Positions 314-14,979 of a stretch of DNA of 29,269 nucleotides are shown one piece after another. The first letter of the stretch is position 1; every line of letters begins with the position of its first letter. The stretch comes from a virus. The stretch spans positions 1 to 29,269 of the IMG/VR virus record IMGVR_UViG_3300047548_000387. One strand, written 5' to 3'. The notes under the pieces are model-generated. The model searched no databases. It had not been told where the DNA came from and saw only the letters and a list, made by a program, of their open reading frames with translations. Position numbers and translations under genes: made by a program.

Positions 314-388
314 TGGAGCTGGGTACGAGACTCGAACTCGTATCTATAGGGTGGAAACCTAGCATAATAGCCTTTATACTAACCCAGC
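314..388 (-). tRNA. tRNA-Gly (anticodon TCC)
   Basis: Read on the minus strand this folds as a complete cloverleaf: acceptor GCTGGGT/ACCCAGC, D stem GTAT/ATGC, anticodon loop TTTCCAC (TCC), T arm ACGAG-TTCGAGT-CTCGT, discriminator T and an encoded CCA. The top pair of the anticodon stem is mismatched. It lies between the OMP and aldolase genes and is read in their direction. Confidence 0.93.
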
Positions 389-392
389 ATGT

Positions 393-1022
393 TTAATCAT
401 AGATACCAGACTCTAGAACGATCTTAGCAATATGTTCAAGACGTTCAATGTGTTCGTAGGCACGCCACGGTGTTTTATCAACTGATACAACTCCATGCCC
501 TTCAATACCAACAATATTATACTTAGTAGTACCGTCTGGTTGTAGCTCTAGATGTTTAGCAACTGCTTCACCTAGATCCCATGATACAGGTGGTGTATTC
601 CTAATAGTTGGTGCCACCATCGTGTATCGTGAAATTTCTGGAAATTCTTCCCTTAGTTCATGAAGAAATACTGTAGCTCGCATAGCAGCAACAGTGTAAG
701 TTGAATGCACATGCATGACTACTCGAGTATCCCAGTCTTCAGGTAGAGTCTGTTGAAGAAGAAAGTGTAGCGGGAACTCACCACTTGGTCGAAGATTAGA
801 AGAGATGTTCGTGTAAGGTAGTTCTACCGGTGTACGATTCTCACCGAGATTGACAGACAGCTTCTTGAACTGATCAGGGTTAAGCGTGTGTTTACGCACA
901 TCGGTAGGAGAAATGTAGAAGAATGGCTGTTCACGGTAACGCAGTGAAACGTTACCGTCACGTGACGTCATCAGTCCACGCTCATAAGCTTCTACCATTA
1001 AGTCACAGCAAGTTTCTAGCAT
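393..1022 (-). CDS. Class II aldolase/adducin family protein
   Basis: This 209-aa protein has the layout of the zinc-dependent class II aldolase family (L-fuculose-phosphate aldolase, ribulose-phosphate 4-epimerase, methylthioribulose-1-phosphate dehydratase). The DGNVSLR substrate loop lies at residues 22-28, the candidate catalytic Glu82 sits in RPSGE, and His104-x-His106 plus His176 (EGHG) match the three metal ligands. The start at 1022 is chosen because GAGGA lies 9 bases before this ATG; a further in-frame TTG at 1037 overlaps that site. The gene sits just downstream of the methyltransferase gene. The substrate cannot be told from sequence. A role in methionine salvage or sugar-phosphate chemistry would be an inference from the family only. 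Confidence 0.85.
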   Translation of the reverse strand: MLETCCDLMVEAYERGLMTSRDGNVSLRYREQPFFYISPTDVRKHTLNPDQFKKLSVNLGENRTPVELPYTNISSNLRPSGEFPLHFLLQQTLPEDWDTRVVMHVHSTYTVAAMRATVFLHELREEFPEISRYTMVAPTIRNTPPVSWDLGEAVAKHLELQPDGTTKYNIVGIEGHGVVSVDKTPWRAYEHIERLEHIAKIVLESGIYD

Positions 1023-1033
1023 AGTATAAATCC

Positions 1034-1609
1034 TCAAGAATAAGTGATATATCGCTGTAGTTCATACATAGCAACTGCGGCGGCAGACGAAACATTTAGT
1101 GAACGAATGACACCACGTTGTGGGATATGGAAGCATTGATATTTATCTGCGATACAAGACGGAACGCCGTTCTGTTCGTTACCCAGTACCAAGCAAGGTG
1201 TAGCAAATGGATCAGTATCAGAGAGCCACTGATTCATTTCTTTGATATCGAAAGAATCATCAGTCTTTTCAATAACGACTGGTGTGATATCATGTTTCAA
1301 CACCATGTCATCAAACGCTTGACAAATGGCGTTTGAATCTGTAATGTCGTCAAAGTCATGCTTAACAATATCGATGTAGTGATGGGCTCCAACAGTCGAC
1401 CTTAGATCATATCGGCGCCGACCAAAAATAAATACTCGGTTAGCACCAAAAATGTGAGCTGATCGAATGCAGTTACCGATATTTAGATCATGCTCTAGGT
1501 TCATCAGACACACATCATAACGAAGTCGAGATTCTCTAGAGACAGCTTTTAGCTCTGAGACTTCTAAATGCTTGTATTCATCATGTACGTTGTAACACAT
1601 GTTATCCAT
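1034..1609 (-). CDS. SpoU/TrmH-family RNA 2'-O-methyltransferase
   Basis: This 191-aa SPOUT-fold enzyme shows all three family motifs. Motif 1 is N43-IGN-C-IRS with the catalytic Arg49, motif 2 is CLVLGNEQNGVP at 139-150, and motif 3 is HIPQRGVIRSLNVS at 161-174. The second and third form the trefoil knot that binds S-adenosylmethionine. The family methylates ribose 2'-OH in tRNA or rRNA. The position beside eight tRNA genes suggests tRNA as substrate, which is inference. The protein is short and lacks the extra N-terminal domain of the RlmB type, resembling compact TrmH/TrmL enzymes. No good ribosome site is visible before the first ATG; Met4 is an alternative start. Confidence 0.9.
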   Translation of the reverse strand: MDNMCYNVHDEYKHLEVSELKAVSRESRLRYDVCLMNLEHDLNIGNCIRSAHIFGANRVFIFGRRRYDLRSTVGAHHYIDIVKHDFDDITDSNAICQAFDDMVLKHDITPVVIEKTDDSFDIKEMNQWLSDTDPFATPCLVLGNEQNGVPSCIADKYQCFHIPQRGVIRSLNVSSAAAVAMYELQRYITYS

Positions 1610-1704
1610 CTTACAAGTTAAGGATATGGGATATACTCACCGAATAACAGAAAGTATTGTCTTATGCTATATCCCCATATAATATAACAGCATCCGATTT
1701 ACTA

Positions 1705-1739
1705 ATCATCTTAATAGAACCGGAACTATTTAAGATGAT
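1705..1739 (-). other. Hairpin in the tRNA-Tyr trailer
   Basis: ATCATCTTAATAG at 1705-1717 is complementary to CTATTTAAGATGAT at 1726-1739 with one bulged base and an 8-base loop. It lies just 3' of the tRNA-Tyr CCA on the transcribed strand and upstream of the methyltransferase start. There is no T tract, so it looks like a processing or stabilising structure rather than an intrinsic terminator. The rest of 1610-1741 holds no gene that I can see. Confidence 0.45.
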
Positions 1740-1741
1740 AT

Positions 1742-1827
1742 TGGTGGGAGATCAGGGTATCGAACCCTGTCAACACAAAGGCCATGGTTTTACAGACCAG
1801 TCGGCGTCCTTAGCCGAATACTCTCCC
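1742..1827 (-). tRNA. tRNA-Tyr (anticodon GTA), long variable arm
   Basis: An 86-nt class II tRNA. The acceptor is GGGAGAG/ATCTCCC (last pair mismatched), the anticodon loop CTGTAAA is closed by TGGT/ACCA, there is a long variable arm, the T arm is CAGGG-TTCGATA-CCCTG, the discriminator is A and CCA is encoded. Confidence 0.92.
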
Positions 1828-1832
1828 AAGAT

Positions 1833-1906
1833 TGGCATGGGTGCTAGGATTTGAACCCAGACAAACGGATTTGGAGGCCGTTATGCTACCGTTACATCAC
1901 ACCCAT
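1833..1906 (-). tRNA. tRNA-Trp (anticodon CCA)
   Basis: The acceptor is ATGGGTG/CACCCAT, the D stem ATGT/GCAT, and the anticodon loop CTCCAAA (CCA) is flanked by ACGG/CCGT. The T loop is TTCAAAT. Discriminator G, normal for Trp, is followed by an encoded CCA. It follows tRNA-Tyr closely in the same orientation. Confidence 0.92.
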
Positions 1907-2049
1907 AAGATCAGTATTGTGGCAGGTGAGGTATCTCTTCTTGACTCGCAAGAGCTGAAGTGCCCATTCTCCTTTTATAGACTGATCAGATCTACTCTAC
2001 CATGTATCGCCTGCAGACCGAGCTAGGTAGACTTTACTTACCACAAACT
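1907..2049 (-). other. Unassigned 143-bp spacer inside the tRNA cluster, structured ends
   Basis: No canonical tRNA or convincing gene fits here. On the minus strand GCAGGCGA (ending near 2013) can pair with TCACCTGC at 1924-1931 with a single mismatch, like an acceptor stem. A GGTAGAGTAG segment resembles a D loop, and CTTG-CGAGT-CAAG forms a small hairpin. I could not fit a T arm, so this may be a decayed tRNA or another structured RNA. Confidence 0.25.
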
Positions 2050-2126
2050 TGGTATCACGGACGAGAGTCGAACTCGCATTATCCAGAATGAAAGTCTGGT
2101 TTCCTAGCCAATTAGAAGACCGTGAC
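2050..2126 (-). tRNA. tRNA-Glu (anticodon TTC)
   Basis: The acceptor is GTCACGG/CCGTGAT, with one G-T pair. The anticodon arm is CCAGA-CTTTCAT-TCTGG (TTC), the T arm CGAG-TTCGACT-CTCG, the discriminator A, and CCA is encoded. Confidence 0.92.
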
Positions 2127-2136
2127 AAGATATTGA

Positions 2137-2210
2137 TAGTCCTGGACAAACTCGAACCGCCAACCCTCAGATTCGTAATCTGGTGCTCAATCCAATTGAG
2201 CTACAGGACT
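2137..2210 (-). tRNA. tRNA-Arg (anticodon ACG), CCA not encoded
   Basis: The acceptor is AGTCCTG/CAGGACT, the D arm follows the GCTCAATTGGAT pattern, and the anticodon loop is TTACGAA (ACG). The T loop is TTCGAGT and the discriminator A. The next bases are TCA instead of CCA, so the 3' end would need host CCA addition. The A34 wobble base would normally be edited to inosine by host TadA. Confidence 0.9.
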
Positions 2211-2217
2211 AATAGTC

Positions 2218-2607
2218 TTACTTATTATTTTCATCGTATCTTTCTTTGATGAGCCTAATCAATTCAGGATCACGATACACAAAATCGTCAGGAAGATTGA
2301 GTTGAATAATCGTTACAGAATCAGGACTCAAACCGCAATCAGATAGACGTTGAAGAACAATATCTGTATGATCTTGTTCCATTGTAACAATTTCATCTGC
2401 CCAGTGAAGATGTACAATATCTAGTGGAATCAGTGCATATTCTCGTGAAATACCAACCGCTCGCGTATTGAAGTTATATGGTTCTTGAGATAGAACTACA
2501 GCTGCAGTTGGAGATCGCAGTAGACCAGCAGAACAAACACACAGTACCCTTTTGATTTGTCCTTGAAAAGGACTTGCTGCGTTTCCAATTCTATTCATTG
2601 TACCCAT
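2218..2607 (-). CDS. Low-molecular-weight protein-tyrosine-phosphatase-like protein
   Basis: This 129-aa protein carries the phosphatase P-loop VCSAGLLRSPTA, i.e. Cys25-x5-Arg31-Ser32, after a beta strand (RVLCV). Acidic residues near the C-terminus (D107/D108, D113 in a DP pair) could supply the general acid. Length and motif match the small 'predicted protein tyrosine phosphatase' group (COG4551-like) better than full-length LMW-PTP, which has a Gly-Asn in the loop. It may dephosphorylate a host protein or small molecule; the substrate is unknown. The start is supported by AAGGA seven bases upstream. It has its own sigma70-like promoter (2633-2661) and lies between tRNA genes. Confidence 0.78.
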   Translation of the reverse strand: MGTMNRIGNAASPFQGQIKRVLCVCSAGLLRSPTAAVVLSQEPYNFNTRAVGISREYALIPLDIVHLHWADEIVTMEQDHTDIVLQRLSDCGLSPDSVTIIQLNLPDDFVYRDPELIRLIKERYDENNK

Positions 2608-2632
2608 GTTATTTCCTTATTATGTATGATCT

Positions 2633-2661
2633 TATATATCATAGATCTATAAGATAGTCAA
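2633..2661 (-). promoter_or_regulatory. sigma70-like promoter for the phosphatase gene
   Basis: On the minus strand TTGACT (2661-2656), a 17-base spacer and TATATA (2638-2633) lie about 25 bases before the ATG at 2607. The element has the same TTGAC(A/T)-17 layout as the other leftward promoters in the window. Confidence 0.6.
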
Positions 2662-2669
2662 TAACATTT

Positions 2670-2744
2670 TGGTGCTCCCATTCGGAATCGAACCAAATTA
2701 TCCGGAGTACAAATCCGGCGCATCACCTTTTATGCTTTAGGAGC
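2670..2744 (-). tRNA. tRNA-Thr (anticodon TGT)
   Basis: The acceptor is GCTCCTA/TGGGAGC, the anticodon arm CCGGA-TTTGTAC-TCCGG (TGT), the T arm TTTGG-TTCGATT-CCGAA, the discriminator A, and CCA is encoded. Confidence 0.93.
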
Positions 2745-2748
2745 AGAG

Positions 2749-2825
2749 TGGCTCCTGGTGTTGGAATCGAACCAACCTGATGAACAGATTAACAGTCTGC
2801 TGACACACCTTGTGTCCGACCAGGA
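2749..2825 (-). tRNA. tRNA-Asn (anticodon GTT)
   Basis: The acceptor is TCCTGGT/ACCAGGA, the anticodon arm CAGA-CTGTTAA-TCTG (GTT), the T arm GTTGG-TTCGATT-CCAAC, discriminator G (as expected for Asn), and CCA is encoded. Confidence 0.93.
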
Positions 2826-2839
2826 TTATTATAATTGTG

Positions 2840-2955
2840 TGGCGTTAGAGGAGGGATTTGAACCCTCTGTCTCCGCCCATTGAGCGGAAGGCTTCATCCA
2901 TCAGCCCAAGGAACGACTTCCTTGAGACAGCCCGTCGACTGTCTTTGCTCTCGCC
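2840..2955 (-). ncRNA. Many-armed structured RNA with tRNA-like 3' half
   Basis: Read 5' to 3' on the minus strand, GGCGAGAG (2955-2948) can close on CTCTAACGCC (2850-2841) with two bulged A's. Five hairpins stand in a row between them: GACAG/CTGTC (8-base loop), AAGGAA/TTCCTT (GTCG loop), GGCT/AGCC, CCGC/GCGG and GAGGG-TTCAAAT-CCCTC. The last is a perfect T arm, and CTCTAAC-G-CCA follows as in a tRNA 3' end. The GGCT arm is like a D arm. The presumed anticodon loop (TCAATGG) lacks U33, and no GTTAGAG is present to make a normal acceptor stem. It could be a tRNA pseudogene with rearranged arms or a new RNA. It lies between real tRNAs and in their direction. Confidence 0.5.
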
Positions 2956-2971
2956 ATAGATTGCAAGACTA

Positions 2972-3010
2972 GCCGTATCGCACGGCAATAACTCTTAGTA
3001 TACTAAGAGT
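2972..3010 (-). other. Two hairpins upstream of the structured RNA
   Basis: GCCGT/ACGGC (2972-2976 with 2982-2986) is followed by the perfect 20-base palindrome ACTCTTAGTATACTAAGAGT at 2991-3010. Both fall between tRNA-Lys and the structured RNA. They could be processing signals, further arms of that RNA, or a protein-binding site. Confidence 0.5.
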
Positions 3011-3033
3011 TCGCATTCTACGCTCGTCTTTAG

Positions 3034-3113
3034 TGGAGGATCACCAGAGAATCGAACTCTGCAAAGACACGGATTAAAAGCCCGCCGCACACACCAGTGA
3101 GTGCATGTGATCC
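3034..3113 (-). tRNA. tRNA-Lys (anticodon TTT)
   Basis: The acceptor is GGATCAC/GTGATCC, the D arm GCAC...GTGC, the anticodon loop CTTTTAA (TTT) is flanked by CGGG/TCCG, the T arm is CAGAG-TTCGATT-CTCTG, the discriminator T, and CCA is encoded. Confidence 0.92.
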
Positions 3114-3122
3114 ATAAATTAG

Positions 3123-3317
3123 TTAAAGAATATCTACGAGACGACCGGTATCATGTTCGACACAACGAACACGCTTACCATTAAAGCGACTGTGTACTGA
3201 CTTCATGGCGTTCAAAACCTCAAACATACTAGAACGACCAAGTAGCTCACACGTGTTCCACTCGCCGTTGTAGTCCTGGTACTGAATTGCCGCGTTCTCT
3301 ACGATATTATCGCTCAC
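3123..3317 (-). CDS. Small protein of unknown function
   Basis: A 64-aa soluble protein, not recognised. The GTG at 3317 is preferred because GGAG lies 7 bases upstream of it, whereas the in-frame ATGs at 3332 and 3329 have no ribosome site and overlap that GGAG. The C-terminal half (GKRVRCVEHDTGRLVDIL) looks like a small beta fold. It has its own promoter with an inverted-repeat operator (3348-3384), so its expression is probably controlled separately. It lies directly upstream of tRNA-Lys. Confidence 0.65.
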   Translation of the reverse strand: MSDNIVENAAIQYQDYNGEWNTCELLGRSSMFEVLNAMKSVHSRFNGKRVRCVEHDTGRLVDIL

Positions 3318-3642: not shown

Positions 3643-4095
3643 CTAAAAGTTACCATTCCCCATTCCACAATCATAGACCCACATACCATTATCGATCCAC
3701 ATCTCGCAGAGACGCTTGCGATCTTCAAACACTGCTTCTGGGTTGAGACCATCTTTACGCATCTCGTGCAGAAGTTCTAGCTTAACATCAGTATCTGGTC
3801 GTCGGTCACCTTCTCTACGCATGTATAGATGCATGTTATCCTTGAAGTAAGGATAGACAAATTCGTAGATCCAGTCGATCGTCATCCTACGATATTTATC
3901 ACTGCGACCAGTACAAAAGATCACCGTGTGCCCAGCCTCGATCAGAGACCTAATGATGAAGATGCTTGGAAGGATCGGCTTATCGCGATCCATCTTAGAA
4001 AAGAAAGCATCCCAGTCAACCGGTTTCTGTTCGAGATGATGGAGTCGATGGTTGATGTCAGCTACCGTTCCATCGATGTCAAAAATGAAGTCCAT
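3643..4095 (-). CDS. HAD-superfamily phosphatase, polynucleotide 3'-phosphatase-like
   Basis: This 150-aa protein has the HAD motifs in order: FDIDGTVAD with Asp6/Asp8 (motif I), FCTGR with Thr62 (motif II), Lys105 and FEDR with Asp125 (motif IV). The overall look (D-G-T-V-A-D-x-x-H-R at the start, F-x-D-R-x-x-x-C-E-M-W near the end) resembles the phosphatase half of T4 PseT/Pnkp without the kinase half. PseT removes 3'-phosphates so that nicked tRNA can be religated, so a similar repair task is plausible but inferred. Its ATG overlaps the stop of the upstream small membrane gene (TAATG), implying coupled translation. Confidence 0.82.
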   Translation of the reverse strand: MDFIFDIDGTVADINHRLHHLEQKPVDWDAFFSKMDRDKPILPSIFIIRSLIEAGHTVIFCTGRSDKYRRMTIDWIYEFVYPYFKDNMHLYMRREGDRRPDTDVKLELLHEMRKDGLNPEAVFEDRKRLCEMWIDNGMWVYDCGMGNGNF

Positions 4096-14806: not shown

Positions 14807-14979
14807 TGGGTAATTACTTTATCAAAAGTGAAGATGGTAAGTTTCATGTGATTGAGCGTGATACTGATCAAAATATTAAGTCATACAACAACTACTGTAA
14901 AGCAAAGAAACAATGTGACTTATTAAACTCAGGAGTTGGCTTCGATGGTTGGACTCCAGCATTTATTATTAAAACTTAG
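14806..14979 (+). CDS. 57-aa protein of unknown function
   Basis: Its ATG overlaps the helicase stop (TGATG), so translation is coupled. The product (MGNYFIKSEDGKFHVIERDT...) has a beta hairpin followed by a helix (NNYCKAKKQCDLLNSG) and ends FIIKT. This strand-helix plan is common in small phage proteins. A perfect 11-bp hairpin starts at its stop codon and probably marks the end of the replication transcript. Confidence 0.68.
   Translation: MGNYFIKSEDGKFHVIERDTDQNIKSYNNYCKAKKQCDLLNSGVGFDGWTPAFIIKT

Follow-up and report, generated by a model that had tools for sequence, protein, structure and literature searches.

A Predicted Five-Hairpin RNA With a tRNA-Like 3' End and a Conserved Upstream RNA Motif in a Phage tRNA Cluster

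The Locus

The DNA analyzed here (the window, 29,269 nucleotides) is the IMG/VR virus record IMGVR_UViG_3300047548_000387, positions 1 to 29,269. Its DNA polymerase matches 2578 phage records, the best 20 of which are 48–49% identical and belong to Synechococcus phages, Sinorhizobium phages and one marine virus; from these relatives, we take the virus to be T4-like. ARAGORN called ten tRNAs in the window, of which eight occupy the minus strand within 314–3113. The predicted RNA with a tRNA-like 3' end, here termed RNA b, is placed between tRNA-Lys(ttt) and tRNA-Asn(gtt) and is encoded on the same strand as the tRNA-Lys, tRNA-Asn and tRNA-Thr genes called by ARAGORN. A conserved RNA motif, termed element a, is positioned 9 nt upstream of RNA b (Table 1); it was absent from the earlier note on this DNA, which had described RNA b from the sequence.

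Table 1. Features of the locus, with the T4 RNA used for comparison (window positions except in the last row).
Feature	Position	Strand	Basis or remark
tRNA-Lys(ttt), upstream neighbour of RNA b	3034..3113	-	ARAGORN
Element a, conserved four-helix RNA motif, 66 nt	2965..3030	-	12 distinct sequences, covariation
Element a P1, 5' strand AAGAC, pairs with 2969-2965	3026..3030	-	Changes on both sides in 4/5 pairs
Element a P2, GCG-TAGAA-TGC	3013..3023	-	Changes on both sides in 1/3 pairs
Element a P3, variable hairpin, perfect 22-nt palindrome in the window	2990..3011	-	Changes on both sides in 8/8 pairs
Element a P4, GCCGTGCGATACGGC, forms the search seed together with the TAG after it	2972..2986	-	Identical in 12/12
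RNA b, predicted five-hairpin RNA with tRNA-like 3' end	2841..2955	-	MFE fold, hairpin statistics
RNA b closing stem, 5' strand GGCGAGAG	2948..2955	-	Pairs with 2850-2841 in MFE
RNA b hairpin 1, GACAG-TCGACGGG-CTGTC	2926..2943	-	Sequence; MFE
RNA b hairpin 2, CAAGGAA-GTCG-TTCCTTG, 7 bp, GTCG loop	2907..2924	-	MFE
RNA b D-like hairpin, GGCT-GATGGATGA-AGCC, GG in 9-nt loop	2890..2906	-	Sub-threshold Rfam tRNA match
RNA b anticodon-like hairpin, TCCGC-TCAATGG-GCGGA, 5 bp and 7-nt loop	2872..2888	-	MFE; Rfam fragment
RNA b T arm, canonical, GAGGG-TTCAAAT-CCCTC	2851..2867	-	Sequence; MFE
RNA b 3' closing strand CTCTAACGCC (2850-2841) and encoded CCA (2842-2840)	2840..2850	-	Sequence; MFE
tRNA-Asn(gtt), downstream neighbour of RNA b	2749..2825	-	ARAGORN
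HAD phosphatase, PNKP type, near the tRNA cluster	3643..4095	-	PF25109, E 3.3e-22
T4 RNA C (rnaC, species 1 RNA)	AF158101 70908-71046; L339 1109-1247		139 nt

Predicted Fold of RNA b

The MFE plan of RNA b (117 nt folded) consists of five perfect hairpins inside an 8-bp closing stem, which is the architecture that the earlier note had drawn, and its energy of -54.9 kcal/mol (z -4.68) was equalled by none of 200 shuffles. The D-like arm, anticodon-like arm, perfect T arm and encoded CCA reported for the 3' end are all present in the minus-strand sequence, and so are the two additional perfect hairpins 5' of the tRNA-like part (2943-2926 and 2924-2907). The T arm carries a TTCRANY loop, while the D-like hairpin aligns to the D arm in a sub-threshold Rfam tRNA match. 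The anticodon-like loop TCAATGG has C at position 33 and thus, as had been noticed, no U33; in the MFE structure this hairpin closes further, to a 3-nt loop. The claimed lack of a matching acceptor strand also holds, as GTTAGAG, which would be needed to pair the tRNA-style acceptor CTCTAAC, is absent from the minus strand of 2826–3120. RNA b has no 7-bp acceptor stem of tRNA, and its closing stem is built of 4 + 4 bp with an AA bulge, in which both Cs of the CCA are paired if the CCA is the 3' end. The stretch TCGACGGG is located at 2938-2931, starting after 17 nt from the 5' end; MFE hairpin 1 is 8 bp long with a GACG loop, so that this stretch forms no open 8-nt loop there.

In a larger run, the energy of RNA b was reached by 2 of 4000 shuffles. 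Its 27 Watson-Crick pairs in five disjoint hairpins were reached by one shuffle in 5000 and by 5 of 2916 windows from both strands of the record; three of these five overlap RNA b (one being the opposite strand and one covering part of b and part of element a), one covers neighbouring tRNAs (2701–2817, 30 pairs) and one lies at 14921. None of 4000 shuffles combined five or more hairpins with at least 7 pairs that span 100 nt or more, and a share of paired bases as large as that of RNA b appeared in 177 of 4000. A z below that of RNA b (-4.49 in the same run) was obtained for 6 of 648 other 117-nt windows of the record, and the ten tRNAs of the window gave z between -0.6 and -3.3 (40 shuffles each). 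The fold of RNA b is extreme for this record, though not unique. The closing stem alone is weaker evidence and could be due to chance (about 1.6%): when the 27 bases upstream were shuffled 20,000 times, 319 of the shuffles gave at least 8 pairs, against 9 in RNA b by that count.

RNA b Against tRNA and tmRNA Models

ARAGORN found no gene on the RNA b strand in its bacterial tRNA, intron or tmRNA modes; its mitochondrial mode made one call, on the strand opposite to RNA b. Rfam gave no match at gathering scores and none across the whole of RNA b. With lax filters on 128 bases, a tRNA fragment (RF00005) of 18.2 bits was found (gathering score 29, E 0.12), which is limited to model positions 8–63 and covers the D-like, anticodon-like and T arms; the other listed families were no better. 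As a predicted structure, RNA b holds up, and it is no standard tRNA.

The earlier note had also likened a stretch of RNA b to tmRNA. This likeness is confined to the letters of TCGACGGG and their distance from the 5' end, which fit the tmRNA D-loop stretch UCGACGGG; the stretch is partly paired in the MFE structure, and no Rfam match to tmRNA (RF00023) was found up to E 10. The sole test for a tag reading frame, the tmRNA mode of ARAGORN, called no gene. For the rearranged tRNA-Ser/Leu that had been suggested as well, slight support was obtained, in that the 3' end of RNA b has its best resemblance among the loci compared to the tRNA-Ser(gct) of the three related contigs L015/L019/L021 (89% over 27–28 nt). 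The note had further proposed a tRNA mimic that might act on the host ribosome, or else a new small RNA; the ARAGORN and Rfam results agree best with the latter, a small RNA whose 3' end is tRNA-like.

Search for Relatives of RNA b

A second contig of 44 kb (L003/L085/L256) carries the same 208 bases with zero changes. Over 21,811 bases, its identity to the window is 99.995%, and it therefore offers no evolutionary test of RNA b. BLAST and nhmmer searches of 347 sequences returned identical copies only (window, L001, L002, L003, L085, L256), the next match being a 27-nt T-arm match with E 0.007. When the 208 bases were compared by BLAST with 50,697 phage records, 251 matched and none covered 80% of the query; the best 40 of the 251 are T-arm and other short matches. 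A diverged RNA b was found neither among the relatives by DNA polymerase nor, among the matches listed, by aldolase. The exact search for CAGTCGACGGGCTG gave at least 120 stretches; among those listed, RNA b occurs only in L085, with the same sequence as in the window. The pattern of TCGACGGG, 50–80 nt and a T arm was present at 39 loci, namely L085 and 38 others, none of which is a second RNA b; ARAGORN calls a tRNA in 18 of these 38 stretches, one of them of unknown type. Since RNA b is one sequence only among those searched, the sole other copy being identical, it offers no covariation, and both selection on it and a function are putative.

Three of the 38 loci are tmRNA-like (L230 1146-1256, L237 12682-12789 and L227 1447-1526, minus strand). 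These RNAs are about 80–111 nt long, which leaves little room for the usual message part, and score 67.3, 65.6 and 51.9 bits with the Rfam tmRNA model (gathering score 47).

The closest relative that covers the site is L018/L095, whose gene order is similar and in which aldolase, methylase and phosphatase are 93, 91 and 85% identical to those of the window and three small neighbouring ORFs are 61–80% identical. RNA b is absent from it between tRNA-Lys and tRNA-Thr, where a GIY-YIG endonuclease gene and element a are found. This endonuclease gene (L018 3350-4050, minus strand) lies between tRNA-Lys and element a, and none is present there in the window. In another contig, L097, element a is followed by a tRNA.

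Element a Is a Conserved RNA Motif

Element a follows the plan P1 - RA - P2 (GYG..NGC, loop NAGAA) - P3 hairpin - P4 GCCGTGCGATACGGC - TA - P1'. The exact 18-mer GCCGTGCGATACGGCTAG occurs at 15 IMG/VR loci, 13 of which reach at least 52.9 bits with the covariance model R1, while L089 and L086 reach 48.5 and 26 bits. Alignment A1 holds 12 distinct sequences including the window, with identical copies merged and L086, L089 and L336 left out. In A1, 13 of 21 pairs have changed on both sides and 89.9% of the cells pair; the covariation score is 0.548, compared with 0.147 (sd 0.027) for shuffled alignments and 0.080–0.139 for slid partners, and it is somewhat favoured by the structure having been drawn from the same sequences. 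The covariation is carried by P1 and P3, whereas P4 is invariant across the 12 because it was the search seed. The window copy, itself one of the 12 in the model, scores 80.7 bits with R1. The covariation supports the view that element a is probably a folded RNA under selection, and we regard it as the more important result of this follow-up than RNA b.

R1 was run on 81 and 48 sources (L098–L216 and some others were left out) and gave one match in each of ten records searched. Two scans in which parts of P4 were varied and its 5' part was kept yielded no new locus; L337 and L338, obtained in a third such scan, were rejected as members. A text search of 336 sequences for the seed with up to 4 changes found no new member, and a relaxed pattern found no element a in a genome collection of 84,980 species (contigs of at least 3,000 bases), in which the exact 18-mer has one locus, L336, of 30.2 bits with R1. 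Phage BLAST of element a returned seven records, all Sinorhizobium phages (phiM12, phiM7, phiM19, phiN3), matching in the 18-nt seed only; the full element is present in phiM12, unannotated, with 52.9 bits. These copies lie in isolated phages, which makes element a testable. Just downstream of it in phiM12 (L217 3053-3162), an unannotated tRNA-like sequence carries a T arm and CCA, and its anticodon loop is overlong. Plasmid BLAST produced just two partial matches, at E 5.

Rfam has no match to element a in the window up to E 10. Across 13 loci with the 18-mer (11 full members; 131,394 bases), the Rfam hits at gathering score are tRNAs only, and one of these tRNA hits, in L092, spans element a as an insert. 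The letters of P4 had no match in the literature searched, and element a as a whole was found neither there nor in the Rfam 15 scans made.

Element a Inside tRNAs

In two of the 12 distinct copies, those of L092 and L093, element a interrupts the anticodon loop of a tRNA. The intron mode of ARAGORN, which is unaware of element a, called a 71-nt intron in both. When 71 nt were excised in silico at nine positions, one point shared by both loci gave tRNA-Asn(gtt) for L092 and tRNA-Phe(gaa) for L093. The products were att and aaa when the cut fell before this point, also gta at other junctions, and tRNA-His(gtg) in both when it fell 2–4 bases after the point. By the identity rules of tRNAs, the bases before the CCA, G and A, are expected for Asn and Phe and not for His, and for this reason, Asn and Phe are preferred over His. 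No other tRNA-Asn or tRNA-Phe was called in L092 or L093. On its own, the intron mode provides weak evidence: of its 33 distinct intron calls in the loci examined, most resemble by eye two neighbouring tRNAs joined, and a set of 3000 random stretches of 270 nt drew 2 calls, both of one kind with a 79-nt insert.

A third contig, L226 (775-924, minus strand), carries a tRNA-Phe that is interrupted at the same point, between positions 34 and 35, by 79 nt unrelated to element a by model R1; this is a second small insert in a phage tRNA.

Other copies of element a lie between genes, and the L083 copy lies inside an open reading frame of 699 codons; these placements, like the tRNA-His(gtg) obtained with later cuts, speak against an intron. 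Genes resembling homing endonucleases are found within 0.4 kb of element a in 4 of the 12 distinct loci, namely L092 (HNH), L095 (GIY-YIG), L091 (T5orf172) and L097 (GIY-YIG), a count that covers 20 chosen flanking ORFs in 11 loci and four in the window. In the window, the PNKP-type phosphatase gene lies 0.6 kb from element a; its possible relevance to an excision mechanism is suggestive only.

The restored anticodons suggest that element a may be excised from tRNAs, and self-splicing, self-cleavage followed by repair, or the action of a protein are candidate mechanisms. Our best guess makes element a intron-like and excisable, and functionally separate from RNA b; it may represent a new class of mini-intron or ribozyme. 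To our knowledge, about 70 nt is much smaller than any known self-splicing intron. If the excision is real, a 71-nt unit leaving the anticodon loop of a tRNA would be far below the known self-splicing introns, or it would point to an unknown splicing enzyme.

Other RNAs in the Window and in Related Contigs

A stretch of 143 bases between tRNA-Glu and tRNA-Trp (window 1907-2049, minus strand) is 87.5% identical to L018 2774-2913 and shows, by eye, paired changes in two hairpins. It was rejected as a further structured RNA, as its fold is no better than shuffles (z 0.01), and it has no Rfam match up to E 10. A tRNA-Lys-like sequence in L097 (10665-10749, minus strand) and a tRNA-Tyr-like one in L092 (13208-13295) have by eye the T loop AGCGTTA in place of TTCRANY. 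A tRNA-Arg(acg)-like gene that ARAGORN misses is seen by eye at L097 3340-3356 and upstream (minus strand); its anticodon arm is preceded by no D arm and followed by a long stretch. Between tRNA-Gly and tRNA-Pro of L085 (4725-4817) lies a tRNA-Ser(tga)-like gene, again recognized by eye and uncalled by ARAGORN. In tRNA clusters of related phage contigs, ARAGORN calls permuted tmRNAs (L012 1090-1453 and L058 14997-15387).

Interpretation

We favour the reading, with about an even chance (roughly 0.5), that RNA b is a non-decoding, tRNA-like RNA from the tRNA operon that acts in trans and resembles RNA C of T4, and that element a is an independent RNA upstream of it. For RNA b, the sequence, the position, the predicted fold, the T arm, the missing U33 and the RNA C-like architecture are what is seen. 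From its strand and spacing, RNA b would be transcribed with the tRNAs; the T-arm minihelix and the acceptor-like stem suggest that it could be released by the tRNA maturation enzymes (RNase P and 3' trimming), and its compact fold would keep it stable. In the weakest step of the proposal, RNA b might act in trans by occupying tRNA-handling proteins and not by decoding, because it keeps the 3' minihelix of a tRNA, has no usable anticodon and bears two extra hairpins.

A dead or recombinant tRNA, perhaps a tRNA-Ser (discriminator G), left by recombination without its 5' acceptor strand and now decaying, is a doubtful but serious alternative. The resemblance of the 3' end to tRNA-Ser(gct), the partial Rfam match with its normally spaced D, anticodon and T arms, and the absence of RNA b from the relative L018 all agree with it, and relatives also contain odd tRNAs that ARAGORN misses; however, decay is expected to break stems first, and RNA b has five perfect stems, two of them where no tRNA has a hairpin. 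It is also unlikely that RNA b is a mini-tmRNA, with an acceptor, a TCGACGGG D loop, a T arm and a message part shrunk to hairpins, which would bind SmpB and the ribosome without tagging. L230 and L237 pass the tmRNA threshold at about 110 nt and with 7-bp acceptors, and therefore short tmRNA-like RNAs exist in viral contigs; in these two, the distance from the acceptor strand's first base to TCGACGGG is 15 nt, close to the 17 nt of RNA b, and mitochondrial tmRNAs without an mRNA-like region are known, according to a reference title in PMC10085705. Against this, both the Rfam tmRNA model and the tmRNA mode of ARAGORN pass over RNA b, its acceptor has a bulge, and in the MFE structure part of TCGACGGG is paired and no stem joins the D and T regions.

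Two further explanations involve an insert or element a itself. That RNA b is a real tRNA with an excisable insert (hairpins 1 and 2) between the acceptor strand and the D arm would agree with the tRNA spacing of TG, the D-like and anticodon-like hairpins, V and T, and with the example of element a, which shows that phage tRNAs can carry small inserts; yet RNA b without the insert would still have no U33 and a 2-nt bulge in the acceptor, and the intron modes of ARAGORN find nothing on its strand, which makes this explanation highly improbable. Slightly better, though still quite unlikely, is that element a and RNA b form one functional unit, for example with a as a ribozyme or processing element that frees b. 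The two are only 9 nt apart, and in phiM12 and phiN3 an odd tRNA-like sequence, bearing a T arm and CCA and uncalled by ARAGORN, likewise comes after element a; but the fold of the phiM12 sequence does not surpass that of its shuffles (z -0.80 and -0.32), normal tRNAs follow element a in L095 and L097, and in most other contexts no tRNA-like RNA stands, by eye, right after it. A more far-reaching proposal, which we put forward tentatively, is that element a, at about 70 nt, represents a new class of mobile RNA that excises or cleaves itself, is inserted in phage tRNAs and is helped by neighbouring homing endonucleases; RNA b would be an RNA on a tRNA scaffold, evolved in a tRNA cluster of that kind to act on tRNA-binding host factors.

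Comparison With Known Systems

With tRNA (RF00005), RNA b shares the canonical T arm, the encoded CCA, and D-like and anticodon-like hairpins at normal spacing, and it differs in having no U33, no 7-bp acceptor and two extra hairpins, as well as in its score of 18.2 bits against 29. With tmRNA (RF00023) and the short tmRNA-like L230 and L237, it shares TCGACGGG about 17 nt from the 5' end, a 3' T arm and the lack of an anticodon, whereas the bulged acceptor, the missing Rfam match up to E 10 and the lack of an ARAGORN tmRNA call set it apart. Element a recalls the group I introns of bacterial tRNA anticodon loops, as its insert lies in the anticodon, between positions 34 and 35, and genes resembling homing endonucleases stand beside some copies; in contrast to these introns, the insert is 71 nt in all and has no Rfam group I match. 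A 2014 review of bacterial group I introns (PMC3984707) places every phage intron observed until then in a protein-coding gene.

The closest known kind of RNA b is T4 RNA C. The T4 tRNA cluster carries two stable RNAs, rnaC and rnaD, of which rnaC (z -4.57) folds into an acceptor-like stem, hairpins and a T arm, and rnaD (z -0.83) folds no better than most shuffles. Sequence similar to rnaC is present in 720 phage records and covers at least 80% of its length in 698; among the 60 rows listed, the homologues mostly have no annotated feature. Eight homologues, drawn from these 60 rows together with the T4 record, were aligned; of the 46 predicted pairs, 17 have changed on both sides, including one acceptor pair and two T-stem pairs, and the T loop is not conserved and does not stay TTCRANY. 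For five of these loci, Rfam yielded no match to rnaC at E values up to 1. The eight-homologue model, run with filters off, scores RNA b at 5.5 bits in the T arm alone, by which RNA b was ruled out as a member of the rnaC family; its best match in window 1700–3300 is element a (11.2 bits, E 0.011), a weak one.

RNA b and RNA C are thus alike in plan and not in sequence. Both are sited in a tRNA cluster, and in both a 3' T arm is continued by an acceptor-like stem while hairpins replace the D and anticodon arms; in folding strength (z -4.68 for RNA b and -4.57 for RNA C) and in length (115 and 139 nt) they are similar. RNA C differs in having two hairpins, one of them long, before the T arm where RNA b has four, and in lacking the CCA that RNA b encodes. 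On the predicted structure, RNA b conforms to the RNA C-like plan of an acceptor-like stem on a T arm, no decoding arm and a place in a tRNA cluster. The roles of RNAC and RNAD are given as unknown in papers of 2010 and 2022 (PMC3014915; PMC9697503), so that T4 RNA C is there still without a known function, and the latter describes RNAC as made late in infection, with a Northern blot check (PMC9697503). A second, unrelated RNA of the RNA C plan, from the tRNA cluster of a different phage, suggests that phages have at least twice turned the 3' minihelix of tRNA into a non-decoding RNA, and with two RNAs of one plan, the question of what RNA C does becomes open to comparison.
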